Source: Bacteroides sp. (lineage in GTDB: Bacteria; Bacteroidota; Bacteroidia; Bacteroidales; Bacteroidaceae). From it: a stretch of DNA of 64,000 nt. The DNA lies in assembly GCA_015060765.1 (NCBI GenBank), contig SUXW01000004.1:124001-188000 (forward strand), given 5' to 3'. The position numbers and the translations under genes were made by a program. Positions 5,597 to 17,564 of this stretch are shown here, one piece after another. Numbering within the stretch: position 1 is the first letter of the stretch; every line of letters starts with the position of its first letter. Below the pieces are notes generated by a model that was given only the letters and a program-made list of their open reading frames with translations, had not been told where the DNA came from and made no database searches.

Positions 5597-6058
5597 TTAT
5601 AATTCATGAAATTCCCAACGATTGTAAAAGCTATTCCATTTGTAATAACCTACATGATTTCCATCAGCATCATAAATGTCATAGCGTTCATAAAAGCTGT
5701 TCCATTTCTTGGTATATTTCATATTCCCATTTTCATCATACCTTTCCGTCCGGTTGTAGAAGTTATTTTTCTTCTCATATCCTCGGCTGTTCCCATTTCC
5801 GTCATTGATGTCTTTCCGATTATAGAAATTATTCTGCTTTTCTGTTTTAAGCAAGTTACCGTTAGCATCATAATATTCCAATCTATCATAGAAATTATTA
5901 TACTTCGCATAACCTACCATTCTACCTCTACTATCGAAAAATTCTGTACGATCATAAAAACTATTGTATTTCTGCGTCAGTTGTTGAGCATCTACTTGAA
6001 GACAAGTCACAATCAACAAGCCCAAACATACTATAAATTTGTAACACTTCATAGTCAT
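5597..6058 (-). CDS. Secreted protein made of 22-residue tandem repeats
   Basis: 153 residues with a signal peptide (about residues 1-25, cleavage near VDAQ). The rest is five full and one half copy of a 22-residue unit with consensus N[SN]FYxRxExYDxxGNxxGYxK; each copy starts with NSFY or NNFY and the period is exact. Such YD/GN repeats suggest a repetitive beta-structure at the cell surface or in the periplasm. Met3 at 6052 is an alternative start. It sits between another secreted protein (12 bp upstream) and a membrane/TPR protein (8 bp downstream). Confidence 0.82.
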   Translation of the reverse strand: MTMKCYKFIVCLGLLIVTCLQVDAQQLTQKYNSFYDRTEFFDSRGRMVGYAKYNNFYDRLEYYDANGNLLKTEKQNNFYNRKDINDGNGNSRGYEKKNNFYNRTERYDENGNMKYTKKWNSFYERYDIYDADGNHVGYYKWNSFYNRWEFHEL

Positions 6059-6662: not shown

Positions 6663-6679
6663 TTTTTGCAAGGCTTGCA
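6663..6679. repeat. 17-bp direct repeat / palindrome, copy A
   Basis: TTTTTGCAAGGCTTGCA, identical to 12908-12924. In this copy TTGCAAG-G-CTTGCAA (6666-6680) is a perfect inverted repeat around a central G, extended by one further pair to 6665-6681. It lies upstream of one operon and downstream of the helicase module. Confidence 0.8.
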
Positions 6680-6861: not shown

Positions 6862-7278
6862 TTACATAAGTTTGATACCGTTTGCAAAAATTAAACAAAT
6901 AGAACTTATAAATATAATTAATAGTAAAATGGTTACAATAAAATTATAATTGAGTATATTCCTTATATTAGTTAAAGAATAGCTAAATTCATCTGAAGCA
7001 ATTGCTAATTTTTCTGATGCTGTTTTAACAGATTCAATAGCTTTTTTACTTTCTATTTCAAATGTATTTATTCTTTGATTATAATCTTTTCCGATTAAAT
7101 CAATTATGATTTGGATTTTTGTAGTGACATTGTTTAAACTATTGACAAATTCGGTAGTACTATTGCTGAGAGCCTCATGAGATGTAACAATCTTTTCTAC
7201 TTGTCTACGTGCGGATTCAATATTATTTAGACTATCTTCTAATTCTTTGAGAGAATTATTAATTTTTTCATCAATCAT
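6862..7278 (-). CDS. Coiled-coil protein with C-terminal membrane anchor
   Basis: 138 residues. Residues 1-110 are highly helical with heptad character (LKELEDSLNNIESARRQVEK and later AIESVKTASEKLAIA). One transmembrane helix sits near residues 112-133 with only a few residues after it, so it is tail-anchored. Its ATG overlaps the helicase stop by 4 bp (ATGA), so the two are co-translated. It may anchor or sense at the membrane for the helicase module. I do not recognise the family. Confidence 0.75.
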   Translation of the reverse strand: MIDEKINNSLKELEDSLNNIESARRQVEKIVTSHEALSNSTTEFVNSLNNVTTKIQIIIDLIGKDYNQRINTFEIESKKAIESVKTASEKLAIASDEFSYSLTNIRNILNYNFIVTILLLIIFISSICLIFANGIKLM

Positions 7279-10200
7279 AATGCTACATATTTTTGGTTAA
7301 TTCTATTGACTTTTTCTATATGTTCCTCTAATTGAATGGCAAGTTGCATCTTTTCTATATAATACATATCTTCTATAGGTATAGCTTTATGTTGGACTAA
7401 CAAATCTGTATATTCATTGAGAAGTCCAAGTTTATCTTGGGACGCATACAATCTCATTACAGCTTTGTAGTCATCGTATAATTCTTGCTCAAGCATCTCA
7501 TTTTCTTGCTGGTCAAGAAATAAGATACAGAATATATTCAAGAGGTTCAATACCGGGTTCATTTCTGCGATAGCACGTCTAATCAAACGCACAGCACCTT
7601 GCAAGTGTTTGATATTGTCTTTTTGAGAATCATTGTTGACAATATCTGGATCAACCACTCTCATGTACTTCTTCACCAGACCAAAGTCAGATATTTCACT
7701 CTCATTATGAATATCATAGTTGGTATCATCCTTCAGAGAGAAAGGAACCTCTTGACTAACACTTGAATCGTAGGTAACGAACCCTTCTCTTGCATATTTC
7801 GAGTTGAAATAGTAATAGATGAAATCTTTCAGGTCCTCATTTGTCTCCTTCCAATCTTTACCAGAGTTGATAGCCATATTGCAGAACTGCTCCATATCCA
7901 ATATACCTCTGGCCCTCTTGTCAGCAATGCTCCTATATATAAAAGATGTAAGGTGTTTTAGACAAGCCATAATCACTCCGTCATTATCAGCCATCTGCTT
8001 AACTTCATCAATCATAATGTCTACTCTATCCTCTGAGTAGTACTTCCGATAATAAAGACGGAGGTAATCATAATAGTGCGACTCATTTTGACATATAGTA
8101 GTTATACGGAATGTCTTTTTAGCATAGTCTTCTGTGAAATCATCTATCAGTCCAATGATACACATCCTGTAGATGGCCTTTTGAATGGCATCTTTATATT
8201 CTGCAGATCCATAATCTCGGATATAGCTGAATCCCCGTTCGTTCTTAGCGTTCTTAGCATTCCATGTGCTGAACAAGGGCATTTGCCTTTCTTTCAGATA
8301 AGTATTATACTCATCAAGCACATGTTCATTCTCTTCGTATGAAATATAATATGTCAGGGTTGTACCTATAGGATATCTTTTGATATATTGCAGAATACCC
8401 TTACTATTTCCATATTTCAGAGAGTCAACACCTACAATCTCCTCATTGCTGATTCGCACATGTAATCCATTCATGAGCAGTTCAATGACATACAGTTCAA
8501 ACTCCTCACCAAGGAAATTACTATCGTAGAAGAATTTATTGTTTGTGTAATCTGCAGAGAAATGGCTCCATTGGCGAGTTCTAGCATTAATAACGGGGAA
8601 AGTCTTAGAGGAATACATGATTGTTGCCAAAGCCATTTTCTTGTCACGCCCAGCACGTCCAGCCTCCTGAACAAACGACTCCAAGGATCCAGGATAGTTC
8701 AAATGTACGGTTATACGCACATTAGACTTGTCGATACCCATTCCAAAAGCTTTTGTGGCCACCATCAGACTGGTATCTCCTGCAAGGAACTCATCCTGAC
8801 AGGACGTATCATCACCTCCCTTATATGTCGATATTCGGTTGATGTTGTGCTCTCTTAATGTATTAGCTACAGTGGGGACACTAAGTCTTACATCAGGCTT
8901 TCCTTCTTTGTTTGCACGAATGCAAAATACAATACCAGCTACATCCGTATGCCTTTCAGTATACCAATCCTCTTCTACGTCTGTATAGAGATCCGTTGAG
9001 TTAATTTCGGCAATTTTACTCTCATCGGATATATTTTCCCTTTCTAGGAACCGTTTCTTAATCTCGTCAATATTACCTTCATTCTGTATTTCCTGAATTT
9101 TCTCTGTGGCATCATTGATGGCATTGAGAACCATGTCTTCCTTTAGTTCATCAACCATTCTAGCCTTTGCTACAGCAGACGCATCTACGGGATATACATA
9201 GTACTGTAACTCCAGTCGATTTGTATTCTCATACCTGACAATTGCGTCATCTTCTAATGAATAAGTGTTACTGCCAGACAATTCGCGTTCCACATCTGCG
9301 AGCACGTCAAACGAAGCCGTTGCCGTCAGTCCAAACAGGGAAATATGGTTGTCTGCACTTTCTACTTCTTTAGGAAGCACATAGTTGTACAGGTTTCTTC
9401 CTAGATGTAGATAGGCCAATCTGAAGTCATGTCCCCACTCAGAAACACAGTGTACCTCATCGATTACACCATAGGCAAAGAATATATCCGATTCTCGCAT
9501 AGATCGCAGAACCTCTCTGAACCTGTGTATGCTCAGCCGTTCTGGCGATAAGAACATGATTTGTATTTGAGCTCCTGTAAGTGCATCCTCCCTTCGTTCT
9601 CTTTCTTCTCGGTTTTTGGTTATATCACTATTGATGTACGAAATACAGTCCACACCCGTTTTGAGCAAACCATCATACTGGTCTTTCATCAGGCCTCTCA
9701 ATGGATCGACAACCAAGGTTACTCCAGGCTGTAGCATGGCAGCCAACTGATAGGTAAGAGATTTACCTCCACCTGTTGGCAAAAGTCCAATGACACTCTT
9801 CAGTTGCAAAGCACGGCTAAGGATAGGAAGTTGGCCTGGTCTGAAGTCTTCTTTTCTGAATATAAGCTTAAGAAAATATCTCAGATGCTCACAAACCTCT
9901 TCGATATTGTGATAATTGCCCTGCGTGTCCCTCTCAACAAGAGGCTTATATTTAATTCTTTCAGTTGTATAGAGAAACCTCTCTGCATAGACAGTCTTTG
10001 ATGACCGAACAATGAAGTAGCAGTCGTTGTTAGCCTTATATTTCGAGAACACAACCTCTTCTGGATTACAAATCTGGTCTATAGAGACATCAATGATAGC
10101 ATCATAAGTAATCTCAGTCCTTGCCTCCTTTTTGCTATGAACGTTGATGGCGGGCAGAGTCATTCCACTGTAATCCTGTGTCATAGCAACGATATGATGA

Positions 10201-11777
10201 TATAACTCAGCAAAATCATCAAGAGCAAGTTTTGCCACCGATGTGTCATCTTCAATGATAAGAATCTCCCAAGAATCCTTCTTCAAATCCAAACGCTCTG
10301 ATATAATCGCCTCTACGAAGGTCTTTTGAATACGTGCTACTGCGTTAAGACTCTTCGCCTTATTCTTAGGACTGACGGCATACAGCACCTTCTGGCTTGC
10401 TATTGTTGGACAGCCTCGTGAAATAAGGTTGCTGACAAGGGCAAAAACAGGACAGAGATTTTTGTGAGCCGTCATATCAAACGGAGCTAGAACTTCAAAT
10501 GCGCTTTGTAATAATGACCCTTGTAGGTCAGTGTCTGAATATGAAGCAAATAACTGGATTGGGGCAAAGTAACTGTACTTGTGGAGAATGTCCCTATTGT
10601 GTGTCAGACTATATGTAAAGCTCTTTATCAGGCAACCATAAGCCTTTCCGTTAGGATGACGACCAAAGTTCACATCCCGGAACTCAGTAAATATGCGAAG
10701 ACCTTCTTTCCTAAAATAGTAACTGAAAGTGTTGATTCGGCTTTCATTAAGATTTGCAGGACCTATACAGAGGGCTATATGCTGAGATCCAGAAGATGTA
10801 ATCATCTTTGAAACACCTTTGAGACTGACCGCTTCAATATCAAGGATATTCGAGAATATATGTATGGCACATGGTTCATGAACATCAATTTTCGTGATAG
10901 AATTGCTATTGTCGCCATAATCTGAAGGAAGATAATAGGGAACGTCAGCAATCTCAATATTTTGTCCCCCTAATGCTTGTTTGACATGTAATACAGCTCG
11001 TTGTCTTGCAACATTAGATGGTTCTTCTAAAGTGACTTTTTTCAGTTTTGGCAACCAACCAAACTGCCGTAGTTTTTCAATGATGGCAACAGTACCTATT
11101 CCCTGACCACATCCCCAATCATAAATCTCCACGCCATTGCTCAGGTTTTTATATGGAAATTCATTCTCATCTAAGGCACGCATTAGCTTGTGATGATGCA
11201 TTTGTCCATAAGCAGCCATGTATGCGCAGCACTGTTCTTCTGTTTCAAGGATAGCCGTACCATGGTTTAAACCTGGATATTCCCAAGGACAATTGGAATA
11301 TTGTGAAGGAATATTATCTCTTGCAATTTTTATAATGTTATCTACTGTAAGATATTCTATTTGCCTTATATCTGTTTCGTATTTTGATAAAATATCCCCT
11401 TTTTCGTTAATCAAGGTTTCTTTACTGCCTACTTGAACTTTACATGTCCCATTTTCCCATTTTACAATATGCGAATATTCTTCAGGTCGCCAACAAGCTC
11501 CTTTCCATGTATGTATCTCCCCTACAAAATCAAATTGTGGTTGTATGACAATCGAAAAGAGTGAATCAACAAATCCCCATTTTCCATTAATCTTAACTGG
11601 ACATAAACCATCATTAAAATCCCAATGGAATTCAATACCTAACGGTGTACCTTCCCTTGATTCACCTATTTCCTCATACTTTAATGGTAAATCAATTATT
11701 TCTTCCTGAGTACCATCAAAATATTTAATGTACCAAGTGGCTTCATTCGTATTAATAAAGCTTGCTACTTTTTTCAT
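7275..11777 (-). CDS. WG-repeat / methyltransferase-like / RecQ-type helicase fusion
   Basis: A 1,500-residue protein. Residues about 45-130 hold a WG repeat (KINGKWGFVDS). Residues about 215-390 contain a Rossmann methyltransferase motif I (YDWGCGQGIGT near 219) followed by LEEPS. About 400-640 is an unrecognised linker domain. From about 640 it is a superfamily-2 RecQ-like helicase: FRPGQ, Walker A LLPTGGGKS near 665, DEVH near 773, the RecQ signature SEWGHDFR, AFGMGIDK near 1010 and QEAGRAGRD near 1037. A 400-residue C-terminal part is unassigned. The ATG at 11777 overlaps the upstream stop by one base (TGATG). It probably unwinds DNA and may bind or methylate nucleic acid. The domain order matches no defence system I know by name. 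Confidence 0.88.
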   Translation of the reverse strand: MKKVASFINTNEATWYIKYFDGTQEEIIDLPLKYEEIGESREGTPLGIEFHWDFNDGLCPVKINGKWGFVDSLFSIVIQPQFDFVGEIHTWKGACWRPEEYSHIVKWENGTCKVQVGSKETLINEKGDILSKYETDIRQIEYLTVDNIIKIARDNIPSQYSNCPWEYPGLNHGTAILETEEQCCAYMAAYGQMHHHKLMRALDENEFPYKNLSNGVEIYDWGCGQGIGTVAIIEKLRQFGWLPKLKKVTLEEPSNVARQRAVLHVKQALGGQNIEIADVPYYLPSDYGDNSNSITKIDVHEPCAIHIFSNILDIEAVSLKGVSKMITSSGSQHIALCIGPANLNESRINTFSYYFRKEGLRIFTEFRDVNFGRHPNGKAYGCLIKSFTYSLTHNRDILHKYSYFAPIQLFASYSDTDLQGSLLQSAFEVLAPFDMTAHKNLCPVFALVSNLISRGCPTIASQKVLYAVSPKNKAKSLNAVARIQKTFVEAIISERLDLKKDSWEILIIEDDTSVAKLALDDFAELYHHIVAMTQDYSGMTLPAINVHSKKEARTEITYDAIIDVSIDQICNPEEVVFSKYKANNDCYFIVRSSKTVYAERFLYTTERIKYKPLVERDTQGNYHNIEEVCEHLRYFLKLIFRKEDFRPGQLPILSRALQLKSVIGLLPTGGGKSLTYQLAAMLQPGVTLVVDPLRGLMKDQYDGLLKTGVDCISYINSDITKNREERERREDALTGAQIQIMFLSPERLSIHRFREVLRSMRESDIFFAYGVIDEVHCVSEWGHDFRLAYLHLGRNLYNYVLPKEVESADNHISLFGLTATASFDVLADVERELSGSNTYSLEDDAIVRYENTNRLELQYYVYPVDASAVAKARMVDELKEDMVLNAINDATEKIQEIQNEGNIDEIKKRFLERENISDESKIAEINSTDLYTDVEEDWYTERHTDVAGIVFCIRANKEGKPDVRLSVPTVANTLREHNINRISTYKGGDDTSCQDEFLAGDTSLMVATKAFGMGIDKSNVRITVHLNYPGSLESFVQEAGRAGRDKKMALATIMYSSKTFPVINARTRQWSHFSADYTNNKFFYDSNFLGEEFELYVIELLMNGLHVRISNEEIVGVDSLKYGNSKGILQYIKRYPIGTTLTYYISYEENEHVLDEYNTYLKERQMPLFSTWNAKNAKNERGFSYIRDYGSAEYKDAIQKAIYRMCIIGLIDDFTEDYAKKTFRITTICQNESHYYDYLRLYYRKYYSEDRVDIMIDEVKQMADNDGVIMACLKHLTSFIYRSIADKRARGILDMEQFCNMAINSGKDWKETNEDLKDFIYYYFNSKYAREGFVTYDSSVSQEVPFSLKDDTNYDIHNESEISDFGLVKKYMRVVDPDIVNNDSQKDNIKHLQGAVRLIRRAIAEMNPVLNLLNIFCILFLDQQENEMLEQELYDDYKAVMRLYASQDKLGLLNEYTDLLVQHKAIPIEDMYYIEKMQLAIQLEEHIEKVNRINQKYVAL

Positions 11778-12844
11778 CACTTACCAGTAATCGTTTCAGA
11801 TTCTTTATTTGTCAAATGGTGTTTCCAATTCCTCACAGCAATTTCCTTGCTTGAATTGGCATAGCAATATTCACACAAATGAGGGCAAGTATTATATTCA
11901 CCGATATCCTTGCTTACTATACATCCACAAAATTGTCGTTGTCCTTTATCCAAATTATCACCATGGGTGGCATAAGTATTATTAGGAAGAATAATAGCAT
12001 CTTTAGGTATTGTTTCAGTTCTTCCAAATAAATCAGATGATGGCAATGGGAATATCTTAACTTTTAAAAAGTCCATTAATACCTTGTCTTCATATGCAAA
12101 TCTTATAATGAGTTTGTCGTCCACACAATGATTATGTTCTATATTAAATTGCTGTAAGTCTACCTTCTCCCCACAAGTCGCAAGTGTGTAGTTCCATTTC
12201 TTGTTGAGAATAGCCAACCTTTTTGAAAATTCCAACATTTTTTGCTCTGTCCAATCATGATATGGAATATTACTCTTTTCAAGATTTGCTTTTACCTTTC
12301 GATATGTAATAATATCAGCAAAACTAAATACAAGTTTCTCTGTATAGCCAATCAATTGGTCTCCAATATTTTCTATTTTTACGAGTAGTTTATCTATATC
12401 AATATCATCTGTCAATACCAAAGGATCAAAGCGCCAAATGACATGTCCCTTCCCTAATTTATCAACAAGTTTTTTGAATGTATCTATTCGTTGTGTAATT
12501 GATGGAACTCCTTGCTCAAGTTTTTCTTTTTCATAATCATTGAGAGTATATTGAATATAACATCCAATATTCTTTTCCTTCAAATAATCAAGATGATTGA
12601 GTAATGGCTGAGGATTCTTCGACCAAAATACGATAAATCGAGTATTTTTATAGGAAACATAAGACTTTACACCATTAAATGGATTTGTCCATGCGGAATA
12701 ACCTATTTTTAATCGATGAAAGAACCAATCCGTATAGAAAGCTGGTATATCCGTACTACGACTTGCAGATATAATTTCAGGAGTTTGTGCCAATACTTTT
12801 CTCCCATCTTCAATAGTTATTTCAGTTTTCTTCCAATTTGCCAT
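11777..12844 (-). CDS. DUF1848 radical-SAM-like protein
   Basis: 355 residues from the ATG at 12844 (MANWKKTEI). A longer frame to 12916 would add a low-complexity Phe-rich leader and is rejected. It has the DUF1848 hallmarks: IISASRSTDIPAF near the N-terminus, then YSAWTNPFN and FWSKNP, with a C-terminal CxxxCxxC (CPHLCEYC) that probably binds an Fe-S cluster. DUF1848 resembles spore photoproduct lyase-like radical SAM enzymes, but its reaction is not established as far as I know. It is the first gene of the three-gene operon with the helicase fusion and the tail-anchored coiled-coil protein. Confidence 0.88.
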   Translation of the reverse strand: MANWKKTEITIEDGRKVLAQTPEIISASRSTDIPAFYTDWFFHRLKIGYSAWTNPFNGVKSYVSYKNTRFIVFWSKNPQPLLNHLDYLKEKNIGCYIQYTLNDYEKEKLEQGVPSITQRIDTFKKLVDKLGKGHVIWRFDPLVLTDDIDIDKLLVKIENIGDQLIGYTEKLVFSFADIITYRKVKANLEKSNIPYHDWTEQKMLEFSKRLAILNKKWNYTLATCGEKVDLQQFNIEHNHCVDDKLIIRFAYEDKVLMDFLKVKIFPLPSSDLFGRTETIPKDAIILPNNTYATHGDNLDKGQRQFCGCIVSKDIGEYNTCPHLCEYCYANSSKEIAVRNWKHHLTNKESETITGK

Positions 12845-12862
12845 ATCAATTCTTTTAAAAAA

Positions 12863-12870
12863 CAAAATTA
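12863..12870 (-). promoter_or_regulatory. Promoter -7 box of the DUF1848/helicase operon
   Basis: Reverse strand TAATTTTG, an exact TAnnTTTG match, 19 bp before the ATG at 12844. Its position supports that start over the longer frame. Confidence 0.6.
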
Positions 12871-12907
12871 GAAAGTAAAAGTAAAAAAAGAAAGAAAATA
12901 TTACGAA

Positions 12908-12924
12908 TTTTTGCAAGGCTTGCA
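12908..12924. repeat. 17-bp direct repeat, copy B
   Basis: Identical to 6663-6679. It lies in the divergent promoter region between the DUF1848 operon and the small plus-strand gene. The last palindrome base is changed (G for A), so the inverted repeat here is one pair shorter. Confidence 0.8.
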
Positions 12925-13454: not shown

Positions 13455-14018
13455 TCAATAAAAGCTGGGTGCTATGAAATGGTGAGACCATGATTCTACA
13501 TAAATAACTTCTTCTTTTAAAGCATCGCGAAAATTTTCAAAACCTTCATAACTACAATCAGAATGAGCAGAGCTAATTGTATCATTGTTTAAAACAATGT
13601 CAAAATATTCATAGAATGTACAACTTTCATCATCCTTACCAGTCTTTTTGTTGATGACATCATTCTCGAAAATCAAATAAGATTGTACGACCTTGTCTGA
13701 TATTCCGAATCCTATCACCATAGCAGTACCCTTTTTCATTGTCCTCCATCCTTTTTCCATACGATATTCACATCTTAATGTTTCATTTGGACTTTCATGA
13801 AATATCTTATATGTTTCTTCAAAAGGGCCTAATTCACAATAATGTCTATAATTGATAATCTTAAGAGTATCGCCATTATTTAGTTCATCAAAAAATTGAC
13901 TTCCTTCAATGGTATGAACGTCATTATCTTTTGTAATGATAAGTTCTTCTGATATGTAACTCTTATTATTCTTACAAGCAATCAAGAACAATGGAAGAAG
14001 TAACAATAAACGTTTCAT
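13455..14018 (-). CDS. Lipoprotein of unknown function
   Basis: 187 residues from the ATG at 14018 (MKRLLLLLPLFLIACKNN), chosen because it begins a clean lipoprotein signal with lipobox LIAC (Cys at residue 16). A longer frame to 14102 lacks support. The mature part has several aromatic and Cys residues (YRHYCELG, CTFYEYFD) but matches no family I know. It is preceded by a -7 box at 14048-14055 and stands alone. Confidence 0.75.
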   Translation of the reverse strand: MKRLLLLLPLFLIACKNNKSYISEELIITKDNDVHTIEGSQFFDELNNGDTLKIINYRHYCELGPFEETYKIFHESPNETLRCEYRMEKGWRTMKKGTAMVIGFGISDKVVQSYLIFENDVINKKTGKDDESCTFYEYFDIVLNNDTISSAHSDCSYEGFENFRDALKEEVIYVESWSHHFIAPSFY

Positions 14019-14047
14019 AATAGGATGGTATAAATTATTGTTATTTA

Positions 14048-14055
14048 CAAACTTA
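14048..14055 (-). promoter_or_regulatory. Promoter -7 box of the lipoprotein gene
   Basis: Reverse strand TAAGTTTG, 30 bp before the ATG at 14018. Confidence 0.55.
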
Positions 14056-14153
14056 CGAAATAGTTTTAATATTTGAATAGTGTTTTGCAAATTTAACATC
14101 ATAATGAATAAACCCCAACCTATCCATATCTATTCTATAAAAAAACGGCCTCA

Positions 14154-14357: not shown

Positions 14358-14384
14358 TAACAATTGACTGGAAGATTCAAACTT

Positions 14385-17300
14385 ATGACAAAAACATCCC
14401 AATTACTTGTATACAAAGCATCGGCCGGATCGGGTAAGACATTTACCCTGGCGGTGGAATATATGAAGATGCTGATCCGTAATCCAAAGGCGTATCGGAA
14501 TATCCTGGCGGTGACCTTTACCAACAAGGCAACCACCGAAATGAAAGAACGTATCTTGGGACAGCTATACGGCATCAGTACAAACGACAAGGACTCCAAA
14601 CCTTACTTGGATAAGCTGGTGGAAGAACTGGACATGGATGTGAATGAAATCAGACAAAGGGCGGAACATGCGCTTACCTTGATGATTCATGACTATAGCC
14701 GTTTCCGGGTAGAGACTATCGACTCGTTCTTCCAATCGGTCATGCGTAACTTGGCGCGTGAACTGGAATTGGGGGCCAACCTGAACATAGAACTGGATAA
14801 TGAGAATGCGTTGAGCGAGGCGGTGGATTCGATGTTGGAAAAAATCGACCGGCATTCGCCTGTGCTCTATTGGATACTCGATTACATTGAGGAACGGATT
14901 CAGAATGACAAGCAATGGAAGGTGACCAGCGAGATCAAATCTTTCGGCAAGGATATCTTCAAGGAAGAATACGTAGAAAAGGGGGAAGCGTTACGAAAGA
15001 CACTGGAGGACAAGGATTGCATCAAGAATTACCGGAAGATACTGAATGCTTTGGAAGAAGAGGCTCTAGAGCAGATGAAGGGTTTCGGGCAACAGTTCTT
15101 CGATACGTTGGATATGAACGGTCTTTCGCCCGACGACCTTGCCAACAAGCAAAGGGGAATTACCAGTTATTTCAACAAACTGATGAATGGTGCCCTGGAC
15201 AACAAGACTTTCAACGCTACGGCCGAAAAGCATCTGAATGATAAAGAGAATTGGGTAAAAGGAACTCATCCCCAACGGGAGGATATCCTCAATTTGGTGG
15301 AACGTGAATTGCTGCCCTTGTTGACGGAAGCGGAAAACTATCGGAAGAAAAACAATTACATCGTCAATTCATGCCGGCTTTCGCTTCAACATGTAAACAA
15401 TGTACGTCTGCTCACCAATATCAATGAGGAAGTACGGGAACTGAATCAGGAAAAGAATCGTTTCCTTTTGTCCGAGACCAATGCACTCCTGCATCAAATA
15501 GTTCGTGAGGGCGACCCTTCGTTTGTATTCGAAAAGATTGGTGCCAACATCCATCATGTGATGATTGATGAGTTCCAGGATACATCGAGGATGCAATGGG
15601 GAAATTTCAAGCTATTGCTATTGGAAGGGTTGGCACAAGGAGCCGACAGCTTGATAGTAGGCGACGTGAAACAATCCATCTATCGTTGGCGCAACGGTGA
15701 TTGGAGTATCTTGAACCAGTTGAATGACAAGATAGGACCGTTCAAGGTGGAAGAAAAGAACTTGAAGACCAACCGCCGAAGCGAAGCACGTATCGTCAAG
15801 TTCAACAACGATTTGTTTACCGCGGCCAGTCAATGGTTGAACGAAAAATATAAGGAAGAACAGCATCAGGATTGCGAGGAACTGTTGCAAGCCTACAAGG
15901 ATGTGGAACAGGATACTTGCAAAGACGACGAAAAAGGATACATCAAAGTGTCTTTCTTGGGAAAGAAGGAAGAGGTGAGCTATGAGGAAGACACCCTCCA
16001 ACAATTGGCTTCCGAAGTGGATAGTTTGCTACAGAAGGGAGTCAAATTGAACGATATGGCTATCTTGATTCGCAAGAACCGTATGATTCCCAAGATAGCC
16101 AGTTACTTTGAGAACCATACCTCCTACCGCATTGTATCCGATGAGGCTTTCCGCTTGGATGCTTCGTTGGCCATCTGCATGATGATGGATGCTTTGCGCT
16201 ATTTGAATACGCCCGACAACCGCATAGCCAAGGCGCAATTGGCGGCCGCCTATCAGAATGAAGTGCTGAAGAAGGATATCGATATGAATACCTTGTTGTT
16301 GCACGAGGTAGAAGCCTACTTGCCTACCGCCTTTATCGAACAGATGAATACGTTGCGCCTGATGCCGCTTCATGAATTGTTGGAGAAGTTGTTCAAACTC
16401 TTCCAATTGTCGCTCATCGAGGATCAGGATGCTTATCTGTTCTCTTTCTTCGACAAGGTGGACGAATACCTGAAGGAAAATTCATCGGAACTGACCGCCT
16501 TTATCCAACATTGGGAAGAGACTCTTTGTGCGAAGACTATCCCATCGGGTGAGATCGAAGGTATCCGCATCCTCTCCATACACAAATCGAAAGGGCTGGA
16601 ATATCCTACCGTACTCCTTCCCTATTGTGACTGGAAGATGGAGAACGAAATACAATTCCATGTGTGGTGCGCTCCCGCACAAGCACCTTTCAATGCACTC
16701 GATCTGGTACCGGTAAGTTACGGCGCAAGTATGAACGAATCGGTTTACCACACTGATTACTTGAATGAAAGGCTTCAGTTGTGGGTAGATAATCTGAATC
16801 TGCTTTACGTAGCCTTCACTCGTCCGAAAACCAATCTGATAGCATGGTGCAAGGGAGATAAATCGGATGGAACAGTATCCGAACTGATTCGAGCGTCCAT
16901 CACTCATACCTCATGTCAATCCCATGAAACAGAAACCGGAGACAGCTGGTATGAATGGGGTGATATCTGTCCATCGAAGCGTAAAGAGGAAAAGGAAATA
17001 ACCAATAAATTGTTGGTAAAACCGGAAGGAATCAACGTTTGCATGGAAAGTATGGAAACGCCCATTGAATTCAAGCAATCCAACCGTTCGGCGGAATTTA
17101 TCAATGGAGAGGTAGCAGAAAGCGAAAAGTACATCCAGCAAGGGGAACTGCTACATCATCTGTTTGCCTATATCCGTACATCCGAGGATATTCCTTCGGC
17201 ATTGAAAAGATTGCGTATGGAAGGTGTCATCACCTCCGATGAACAGGAGAAGGAAATACAGAAATTGGCAACCTGGGCATTGGGACATCCGCAAGCAAAG

Positions 17301-17564
17301 GATTGGTTCTCGGGCGATTGGGAATTATACAATGAATGTAGCATTATCTGCACGAAAAAAGGAGCTGTCATTACCCAACGTCCCGACCGTGTGATGATGA
17401 AGGATGGACAAGTAATCGTGGTGGACTTCAAGTTCGGTAAGAAAAGTGCGGCCTATAACGAGCAGGTACGCAATTACATGAGTCTGTTGGCCAGCATGGG
17501 GTATTCGAATATCCGAGGCTATTTATGGTATGTATTTAATAATGAATTGGAAGAAGTAAACTGA
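14385..17564 (+). CDS. addA: AddA/RecB-like UvrD helicase-nuclease
   Basis: 1,059 residues from the ATG at 14385; an upstream TTG at 14364 is less likely. It is a superfamily-1 helicase with Walker A ASAGSGKT (12-19), motif Ia LAVTFTNKATTEMK, DEFQDT (about 395), GDVKQSIYRWR, a late SIHKSKGLEYPTV and YVAFTR, and a C-terminal PD-(D/E)xK nuclease core (VVDFKFGK near 1013). It would process double-strand DNA ends for RecA-dependent repair with the AddB-like protein, which starts 3 bp downstream. The architecture fits AddA of Bacteroidetes; the symbol is by family and not certain. Confidence 0.88.
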   Translation: MTKTSQLLVYKASAGSGKTFTLAVEYMKMLIRNPKAYRNILAVTFTNKATTEMKERILGQLYGISTNDKDSKPYLDKLVEELDMDVNEIRQRAEHALTLMIHDYSRFRVETIDSFFQSVMRNLARELELGANLNIELDNENALSEAVDSMLEKIDRHSPVLYWILDYIEERIQNDKQWKVTSEIKSFGKDIFKEEYVEKGEALRKTLEDKDCIKNYRKILNALEEEALEQMKGFGQQFFDTLDMNGLSPDDLANKQRGITSYFNKLMNGALDNKTFNATAEKHLNDKENWVKGTHPQREDILNLVERELLPLLTEAENYRKKNNYIVNSCRLSLQHVNNVRLLTNINEEVRELNQEKNRFLLSETNALLHQIVREGDPSFVFEKIGANIHHVMIDEFQDTSRMQWGNFKLLLLEGLAQGADSLIVGDVKQSIYRWRNGDWSILNQLNDKIGPFKVEEKNLKTNRRSEARIVKFNNDLFTAASQWLNEKYKEEQHQDCEELLQAYKDVEQDTCKDDEKGYIKVSFLGKKEEVSYEEDTLQQLASEVDSLLQKGVKLNDMAILIRKNRMIPKIASYFENHTSYRIVSDEAFRLDASLAICMMMDALRYLNTPDNRIAKAQLAAAYQNEVLKKDIDMNTLLLHEVEAYLPTAFIEQMNTLRLMPLHELLEKLFKLFQLSLIEDQDAYLFSFFDKVDEYLKENSSELTAFIQHWEETLCAKTIPSGEIEGIRILSIHKSKGLEYPTVLLPYCDWKMENEIQFHVWCAPAQAPFNALDLVPVSYGASMNESVYHTDYLNERLQLWVDNLNLLYVAFTRPKTNLIAWCKGDKSDGTVSELIRASITHTSCQSHETETGDSWYEWGDICPSKRKEEKEITNKLLVKPEGINVCMESMETPIEFKQSNRSAEFINGEVAESEKYIQQGELLHHLFAYIRTSEDIPSALKRLRMEGVITSDEQEKEIQKLATWALGHPQAKDWFSGDWELYNECSIICTKKGAVITQRPDRVMMKDGQVIVVDFKFGKKSAAYNEQVRNYMSLLASMGYSNIRGYLWYVFNNELEEVN

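Follow-up and report, generated by a model that had tools for sequence, protein, structure and literature searches.

A Bacteroides operon encoding DUF1848, a methyltransferase-RecQ fusion and a tail-anchored protein: a candidate defence system

The three-gene operon

The stretch of DNA analysed here, called the window, covers 64,000 nucleotides (nt) of a Bacteroides sp. contig (SUXW01000004.1, positions 124,001 to 188,000; assembly GCA_015060765.1) and includes an operon of three genes that code for a DUF1848 protein, a fusion of a methyltransferase-like (MT) domain with a RecQ-type helicase, and a tail-anchored coiled-coil protein (Table 1). A first-pass annotation, made from the letters alone, had described three overlapping genes with a central product of about 1500 residues, and both statements were borne out. 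All three open reading frames (ORFs) are on the minus strand, the DUF1848 and fusion genes overlap by 1 base if the fusion starts at its ATG or by 4 bases if it starts at its GTG, and the fusion and tail-anchored protein genes overlap by 4 bases. The sequence TAATTTTG resembles the Bacteroides -7 consensus, TAnnTTTG. The host assembly (2.9 Mb in 42 contigs, 84 % complete, 4.3 % contaminated) is probably a metagenome-assembled genome (MAG).

Table 1. Features of the operon and its surroundings, in window coordinates
Feature	Position (strand)	Residues (aa, amino acids)	Remarks
DUF1848 gene	11777..12844 (-)		355 aa from ATG at 12844; alternative TTG start gives 11777-12916
MT-RecQ fusion gene	7275..11780 (-)		1501 aa from GTG; 1500 aa from next ATG
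Tail-anchored coiled-coil protein gene	6862..7278 (-)		138 aa; single hydrophobic segment near C-terminus
WG-repeat N-terminal extension of fusion	11391..11780 (-)	1-130	Pfam WG_beta_rep
Class I S-adenosylmethionine (SAM) methyltransferase-like (MT) domain of fusion	10506..11393 (-)	130-425	Relatives' alignments
Conserved block of fusion, fold unassigned	9891..10343 (-)	480-630	Invariant residues in family alignment
RecQ helicase core of fusion	8541..9890 (-)	631-1080	Motifs, Pfam, PDB chain match
Family-specific C-terminal region of fusion	7278..8540 (-)	1081-1501	13-row alignment
TAATTTTG, possible Bacteroides-type -7 element	12863..12870 (-)		Just upstream of DUF1848 ATG
17-bp direct repeat TGCAAGCCTTGCAAAAA, upstream copy	12908..12924 (-)
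17-bp direct repeat TGCAAGCCTTGCAAAAA, downstream copy	6663..6679 (-)

Domains of the fusion protein

Pfam recognised DEAD (648-827) and Helicase_C (990-1046) domains and a WG repeat (best stretch 68-88) in the fusion. RecQ motifs were located at FRPGQ (646), LPTGGGKS (667-674), DEVHC (774-778), SEWGHDFR (780-787), GLTATA (817-822), MVATKAFGMGIDKSNVR (1006-1022) and QEAGRAGRD (1038-1046), and motifs 0, I, Ia, II, the aromatic-rich loop, III, V and VI are all represented, which places the core with RecQ at the level of the superfamily. The closest PDB match was a RecQ chain, 4tmu_A (E 1.3e-44), compared to which the core is approximately 90 residues longer between the matched blocks (query 795-970 versus chain 187-271). 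The first-pass description of a full RecQ-type helicase holds for the motifs; the cut-offs of the curated RecQ orthologue families were missed (TIGR01389, 249.3 of 640.2 bits; TIGR00614, 209.7 of 219.8 bits).

The motif YDWGCGQG (220-227), earlier recognised as methyltransferase-like, lies in a region whose relatives match Methyltransf_31 (30 of 75 aligned rows, best E 1.1e-4) or Methyltransf_25 (23 of 75, best E 2.7e-5) at a cut of E 0.5. Residues D221, C224, G225, Q226 and P254 are invariant in 75/75 rows, G223 is kept in 74 and E253 in 73, and the stricter pattern D.GCGQG was found in 68 of 106 MT ORFs, fragments included. No N6-adenine methylase family was matched, and an NPPY-like motif within the MT domain occurs in 0/106 ORFs. 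On these signatures, a glycine-rich motif I and an acidic residue after it among them, the region is a predicted class I methyltransferase in a family of its own.

Following the MT, the first-pass annotation had placed an unknown domain of 240 residues. The conserved block is real but spans approximately 150 residues, with P543, D560 and R601 in 56/56 aligned family members and E510 in 55/56. In many relatives it is preceded by a nuclease-like domain of approximately 250 residues, which gave below cut-off matches to Pfam MTES_1575/DUF559 in relatives that lack the MT and includes a motif, DF..E.P..E(I/V)DG, whose D and second E are kept in 25 of 26 aligned sequences. The window class does not have this domain and, seen from relatives that often carry one, it has been lost from the window fusion. 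The further C-terminus of about 400 residues reported before was recovered as a family-specific region in which the blocks AIYRM, YFNSK and DN..HL.GA are conserved and to which no Pfam family matched. At the other end of the protein, the WG repeat is genuine but a place for it in the core unit was rejected, because BLAST with the WG region matched only L056, L059 and L080 among 83 loci; it is an incidental N-terminal add-on.

DUF1848 and the tail-anchored protein

The first gene product belongs to Pfam family PF08902 (DUF1848, E 3.3e-90). Its CxC-n-CxxxCxxC motif is C-terminal (residues 306-327, nt 11864-11929), invariant in a 58-row alignment and present in 92 of the 93 called ORFs of at least 290 aa, the exception being L062. 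In radical SAM enzymes, the CxxxCxxC motif is usually near the N-terminus. When DUF1848 was compared with SplB/PA0069-like radical SAM proteins of the same order using hhalign, there were two local matches, to the Cys motif and to residues 103-162, which are collinear only once the C-terminus is moved to the front and were never joined in one alignment; the probabilities, which are single-template and uncalibrated, were 83 % for the first and 1.9 % for the second match of each run. These matches are suggestive only of a circularly permuted radical-SAM-like protein. Radical SAM models in the normal domain order missed their cut-offs (13.8 of 430 and 11.7 of 360 bits; Pfam returned only DUF1848), and no believable relative in PDB was found with either the DUF1848 profile or its rearranged version. 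The C-terminal CxxxCxxC motif agrees with the Fe-S radical enzyme proposed in the first-pass annotation, but assignment to a radical SAM family does not follow.

The small protein is a long coiled coil by reading and by weak matches to families of that kind, and its one hydrophobic segment fits the membrane anchor attributed to it before. Of the relatives with a same-strand gene downstream, 39 of 41 MT-RecQ and 12 of 16 MT-less ones have a tail-anchored protein encoded there, using our own hydropathy and distance cut-offs and with L055_3, a long helicase probably outside the family, among the 16.

Relatives of the fusion and linkage with DUF1848 or AlkB

The MT alignment scan covered 80 loci in genome contigs, found using two short motif patterns (80 of 84 confirmed stretches), and 3 loci in viral contigs. 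Duplicate loci on the same contigs (L045, L046, L099, L212 and L214) were removed before the tallies. The 106 MT ORFs counted at 99 loci comprise 45 fused to RecQ, 18 fused to a superfamily 1 (SF1) helicase and one more that is split, 11 accompanied by SF1 and ADP-ribosyltransferase genes, and 31 others. Class I, which includes the window, consists of DUF1848, MT-RecQ and the short tail-anchored protein, and class II has, in addition, the nuclease-like domain between MT and RecQ, with AlkB in some. Class III pairs DUF1848 with an MT fused to an SF1 helicase, many with TerB. Class IV includes DUF1848, a separate SF1 helicase, an ADP-ribosyltransferase/ADP-ribose glycohydrolase and the MT, and in class V the MT is found with LRR, Sel1 or other parts. 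MT-less relatives, retrieved in the order search, are made up of a restriction endonuclease (REase)-RecQ protein and a tail-anchored protein.

Leaving the window aside, DUF1848 and/or AlkB is within 6 kb of 43 of the 45 MT-RecQ genes (DUF1848 at 38, AlkB at 8; the exceptions are L039 and L134), and 34 of the 38 DUF1848 genes adjoin MT-RecQ as the next called ORF, overlapping it or at most 16 bases away. In contrast, neither was present in the fetched DNA at any of 16 MT-less RecQ loci (L033-L038, L040-L044 and L047-L051), a difference with a Fisher p of 7.5e-13 when the loci are treated as independent and kinship is left uncorrected. Taking all classes together, DUF1848 or AlkB is present at 85 of 99 loci and near 76 of the 86 MT ORFs for which 3.5 kb or more of upstream DNA was available. 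When 393 genomes of the order were surveyed with an MT profile built from motif-scan hits, MT was in 19, DUF1848 in 74 and both in 16 (p 3.6e-10, or 1.6e-9 without the window's own genome). Among the 18 other MT genomes, coordinates placed DUF1848 within 5 kb in 13, two (G055 and G263) have it on a different contig and three have none, one of these (G017) having a DUF1848 piece cut by the contig end. Co-occurrence of DUF1848 and the MT extends well past close strains, to Bacteroidales, Marinilabiliales, Flavobacteriales, Chlorobiota and Bacillota, the opposite of an outcome that the first-pass annotation had named as refuting its proposal. Judged from sequence, the conserved unit is the MT together with DUF1848 and/or AlkB, and the helicases are exchangeable.

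Some loci differ in their make-up. DUF1848 and MT are fused as a single 898 aa ORF in L210, and RecQ-class and SF1-class MT genes are close together in Prevotella multiformis (L113, 1112-10600). The four-gene set of class IV, which looks like a separate defence system, is complete in L119 (on the same contig as L212), L218 and L219, and L213, L215, L217, L224, L101 and L103 are among those where it is incomplete or cut by the contig end. The MT-less loci L033-L038, L041, L043, L044 and L047-L051 have the nuclease-like domain and RecQ, mostly with a tail-anchored protein and without DUF1848 or AlkB, and are possibly a simpler parent defence system.

DUF1848 was also examined in genomes free of MT. 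Twenty such loci were fetched and a DUF1848 ORF was called in 19. Three of the 20 (L196, L202 and L205) also hold a distant SF1 helicase and, in L196 and L202, where the neighbours were scanned more fully, there is another methyltransferase-like gene with matches below cut-off. In a sample of 296 genomes of the phylum, 54 have DUF1848, 50 of them in family f136 (genera g253 and g258); two are in the window's family, 52 in other classes of the phylum, and none was labelled 'same class'. DUF1848 may be a housekeeping protein in f136.

Exchange of parts and the oxygen pattern

At L084, L085, L095, L098 and L223, AlkB is directly before the MT and DUF1848 is missing. The locus AlkB is close to human ALKBH3 (E 1.4e-41), and the metal and arginine residues, HxD..H..RxxxxxR, are kept in 13/13. 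The seven loci with AlkB only include four from Flavobacteriales, one from Saprospirales and one from Pseudomonadota, and the 72 with DUF1848 only include 55 from Bacteroidales, three from Bacillota and three from Bacteroidota without an assigned order. AlkB enzymes require oxygen, and we take the AlkB-only hosts to be from aerobic groups and the DUF1848-only hosts to be from anaerobic ones. This division of the hosts suggests one task shared by the two enzymes, carried out by AlkB where oxygen is present and by DUF1848 where it is not.

On a quick tree built from 85 DUF1848 proteins, the effector classes require 27 changes, where the minimum is 4 and the mean after shuffling is 42, with 0 of 200 shuffles as low, and starred branches of the tree force at least 9 changes for the RecQ label. 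Given these numbers, DUF1848 genes appear to have moved between helicase types, less than at random. Comparing the window with L055, both of class I, identity is 96 % for RecQ, 65 % for DUF1848 and 44 % for the tail-anchored protein. Across 153 pairs, the identity of DUF1848 is the one most weakly correlated with that of the other parts (Spearman 0.29 with RecQ; the value for MT and the tail-anchored protein is 0.82).

Mobility and genomic neighbourhood

The operon is patchily distributed. Of 61 genomes of the genus, 4 have the fusion (E 1e-60), and of the 296 phylum genomes 3 have the MT, each count including the window's own; within the genus, the two best other copies of the fusion are 66-67 % identical to it. 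Beside the operon is a gene for an AddA-like protein (14364-17564), so named by reading the sequence. The RecQ of L052 is 92 % identical to that of the window, yet the best AddA-like match in the L052 MAG reaches 26 % identity in the stretch 338-1065 and 38 % in 7-163, plus 45 % in one more short piece, and for this reason the operon looks to have been horizontally acquired. A mis-binned contig would also explain the contrast. AddA was found in 11 other congeners, and in the seven for which upstream DNA was fetched the operon is absent (7/7), as are the other neighbours, save one gene (13455-14102) in one congener.

The 17-bp direct repeats TGCAAGCCTTGCAAAAA bracket exactly the three-gene operon, and the 16-base core of the repeat has only these two copies, at 12908 and 6663, in the whole assembly. 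With at most one mismatch, the repeat was found in 8 of 61 genomes of the genus: two exact copies in the window's own, one exact and one mismatched in G719, and one mismatched copy in each of six others. No similar repeat was found at the ends of the relatives' operons, where L110 has a different match of 26 bases. Each copy in the window is 62-64 bp upstream of a same-strand start codon, and hence the repeats may be either the ends of a mobile cassette or a shared regulatory site, which would fit them equally well.

The relatives are found in the company of defence genes. BREX genes were sought by BLAST with few queries over the mapped loci, and PADLOC was applied to the genes of L123 and L124. 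In L084 and L098, a cassette of AlkB, MT-RecQ and small-protein genes lies between pglX and pglZ of a BREX operon, with two further genes intervening in this slot in L098. In L123 and L124, the slot holds AlkB (and DUF1848 in L124), SF1, ADP-ribosyltransferase and MT genes and brxL follows, with a strong GajA match after brxL in L124. The pglX-pglZ slot thus hosts differing MT/AlkB cassettes, of the RecQ type or of the SF1 and ADP-ribosyltransferase type. In L032, HsdM adjoins.

Genes flanking 44 loci, 39 of which contributed, were taken at lengths of 150-2000 aa and at most two to a side; they were compared with controls, 132 of 171 genes from 20 regions picked by position, and the longest genes were dropped (3/132 flanking, 4/132 control). 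At E 1e-30, the 129 flanking genes matched 122 PADLOC models and the 128 control genes matched 19, which were GajA, MTase_II and mad3 models, each kind hit by a single gene; the counts are of overlapping models rather than proteins, and 25 of the 122 flank models were listed.

A scan of IMG/VR with the whole fusion found nothing, and with the MT region of the window (tblastn, E 1e-5) there was no match in PLSDB plasmids and one in a phage record, MT836254.1, a gut phage. Two IMG/VR contigs, L132 and L133, have DUF1848 and MT-SF1. Phages or prophages may carry MT/DUF1848. On the other side of the operon, 5597-6058 codes for a protein of 153 aa made up of degenerate repeats (YNSFYDR.E.YD..G), without a Pfam match.

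Comparison with known systems

As the first-pass annotation had surmised, the architecture matches no described system: no model in PADLOC-DB 2.0.0 covers the three proteins together, the matches being to helicase cores, the coiled coil and RTasDUF1848. Neither DUF1848 nor PF08902 is mentioned in the open-access collection searched, and among the papers listed from it nothing was recognised as the system of this operon or as an oxygen-independent counterpart of AlkB. The DUF1848 protein shares its family with RTasDUF1848 (E 8.6e-36), which means that PADLOC already includes DUF1848 as a companion of defence reverse transcriptases, but there is no reverse transcriptase domain in the eight window proteins scanned.

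Membership of Zorya, Dpd, PsyrTA and BREX was rejected for the three proteins on missed cut-offs or missing partners. DpdF models match the window RecQ core (best E 9.6e-74 in PADLOC), but the similarity is limited to the helicase core and the NCBIfam DpdF cut-off was missed (122.8 of 550 bits). PsyrT also matches this core (4.4e-51, PADLOC), but the window protein is much longer and includes the MT, and no PsyrA match was found among the three proteins. Like ZorA of Zorya, the small protein is a coiled-coil membrane protein, with a weak PADLOC match (2.1e-6), but it is the coiled coil that is matched, the NCBIfam score is 19.3 of 250 bits and ZorB is not among the three proteins scanned. Cassettes related to the operon occupy BREX operons, but apart from similarity in the helicase core no BREX core gene is matched by the operon's own three proteins.

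Single-chain type I/ISP restriction-modification enzymes carry methyltransferase, helicase and nuclease on one chain, as do the relatives with a nuclease-like domain, but the family of the window has a RecQ-type helicase, a DUF1848 or AlkB partner and a tail-anchored subunit, and no N6-adenine methylase match. ALKBH3 works with the ASCC3 helicase on single strands, and an AlkB enzyme is likewise paired with a helicase here; in this family, however, the pair is coupled to a methyltransferase in a mobile operon, and the window has DUF1848 instead.

Interpretation and alternatives

We propose that the operon encodes a defence system against phages or plasmids that is horizontally mobile and has a swappable DUF1848/AlkB enzyme, a reading to which we would assign a probability of about 45 %. 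Its parts, their linkage, the mobility and the defence context of the relatives are supported by the comparisons of genes and genomes above; the direction of the chemistry, its substrate, the role of the membrane and an effect on phage are what we infer. The RecQ part would travel on or unwind invading nucleic acid, which the attached MT would modify; relatives that carry the extra domain, a PD-(D/E)XK-type nuclease, could cut it as well. The tail-anchored coiled-coil protein would keep the complex at the membrane, the site of DNA entry. DUF1848, a separate, swappable enzyme tied to the MT, would remove or remodel the methyl mark, a job that would fall to AlkB in hosts that use oxygen, and would thereby protect the nucleic acid of the host or complete the mark. 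Removal is the direction we prefer, since AlkB enzymes are known to erase methylation from nucleic acids and since DUF1848 or AlkB mostly has a gene to itself; DUF1848 is fused to the MT in L210, though, and a hypermodification scheme may hold instead. The original suggestion of a candidate new defence or DNA-processing system is supported, as a candidate and no more.

A narrower proposal makes DUF1848 an 'anaerobic AlkB', a radical-SAM enzyme that would demethylate nucleic acid without oxygen, and makes the family a defence of a new kind. The helicase-borne MT would mark foreign nucleic acid in a damaging way, DUF1848 in anaerobes or AlkB in aerobes would clear the mark from self, and the same core would serve in RecQ, SF1-TerB and SF1-ADP-ribosyltransferase effectors. 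In this complete form, we regard the proposal as unlikely.

Several observations weigh against the preferred reading of a mobile defence system with a DUF1848/AlkB partner. The MT region of the window matches no Pfam family at E 0.5 and has no believable relative in PDB, and the relationship between DUF1848 and radical SAM proteins is based on motifs and short local matches. DUF1848 or AlkB is missing from the vicinity at 14 of 99 MT loci, nine of which (L039, L081, L100, L121, L129, L130, L134, L208 and L220) have at least 3.5 kb of upstream DNA. DUF1848 is also present in 58 of the 374 genomes of the order that do not have MT, and some of these MT-free genes adjoin a gene for a TonB receptor, a pyruvate oxidoreductase or a glycosyl hydrolase. 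The oxygen split is confounded, as it follows taxonomy; both enzymes are found at six loci, Aequorivita, Marinilabiliaceae and Chloroherpeton among them, and in the AlkB-only locus from Pseudomonadota (L122) the MT ORF is just 187 aa long. Effector labels in the DUF1848 tree are clustered beyond the shuffles and exchange is therefore limited. Finally, near-identical loci (e.g. L066/L068, L105/L106, L125/L128 and L132/L133) were counted separately.

The operon might instead be a variant of restriction-modification, in which the MT, with DUF1848 or AlkB performing a second step, protectively hypermodifies host DNA and RecQ, with the nuclease of the relatives, attacks unmarked DNA in the manner of the single-chain type I/ISP enzymes. 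The presence of MT, nuclease-like domain and helicase on one chain in relatives, the BREX neighbours at four loci and HsdM beside L032 are in keeping with this, and a second enzyme could finish a modification. However, the MT has neither the family matches nor the NPPY-like motif of an N6-adenine methylase, the nuclease-like domain is gone from the window class, no specificity subunit was matched in eight proteins scanned, and a protective methyl mark would sit oddly with an AlkB partner, and we consider this explanation somewhat unlikely. The same positions between pglX and pglZ, and next to HsdM, could also be read as anti-counter-defence, with AlkB or DUF1848 stripping protective methylation from phage DNA on behalf of the nearby BREX or restriction system and the MT being regulatory or self-marking. 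As BREX genes were recognised by the BLAST searches at only four of the mapped loci, and as the MT is the shared partner and the scheme leaves the order of action unexplained, it seems very improbable.

A role in DNA or RNA repair or in housekeeping, with DUF1848 or AlkB reversing alkylation damage, RecQ opening the substrate and phages not involved, has in its favour that the locus AlkB is ALKBH3-like, that RecQ helicases repair DNA and that DUF1848 looks like a housekeeping protein in f136, the source of most DUF1848 genomes in the phylum sample. The patchy distribution in the genus and phylum, the apparent horizontal exchange, the relatives inside BREX operons and the identity of the linked partner, a methyltransferase, all point away from it, making it improbable.

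Implications for the DUF1848 family

DUF1848 is a family without an assigned function, and its link to the MT, together with its replacement by AlkB in oxygen-using hosts, provides a testable role for it. If the proposal is correct, anaerobes would have their own radical-SAM route for reversing nucleic-acid methylation, and the writer/eraser pair would be an exchangeable defence cassette that is found in at least three helicase arrangements and also inside BREX operons.

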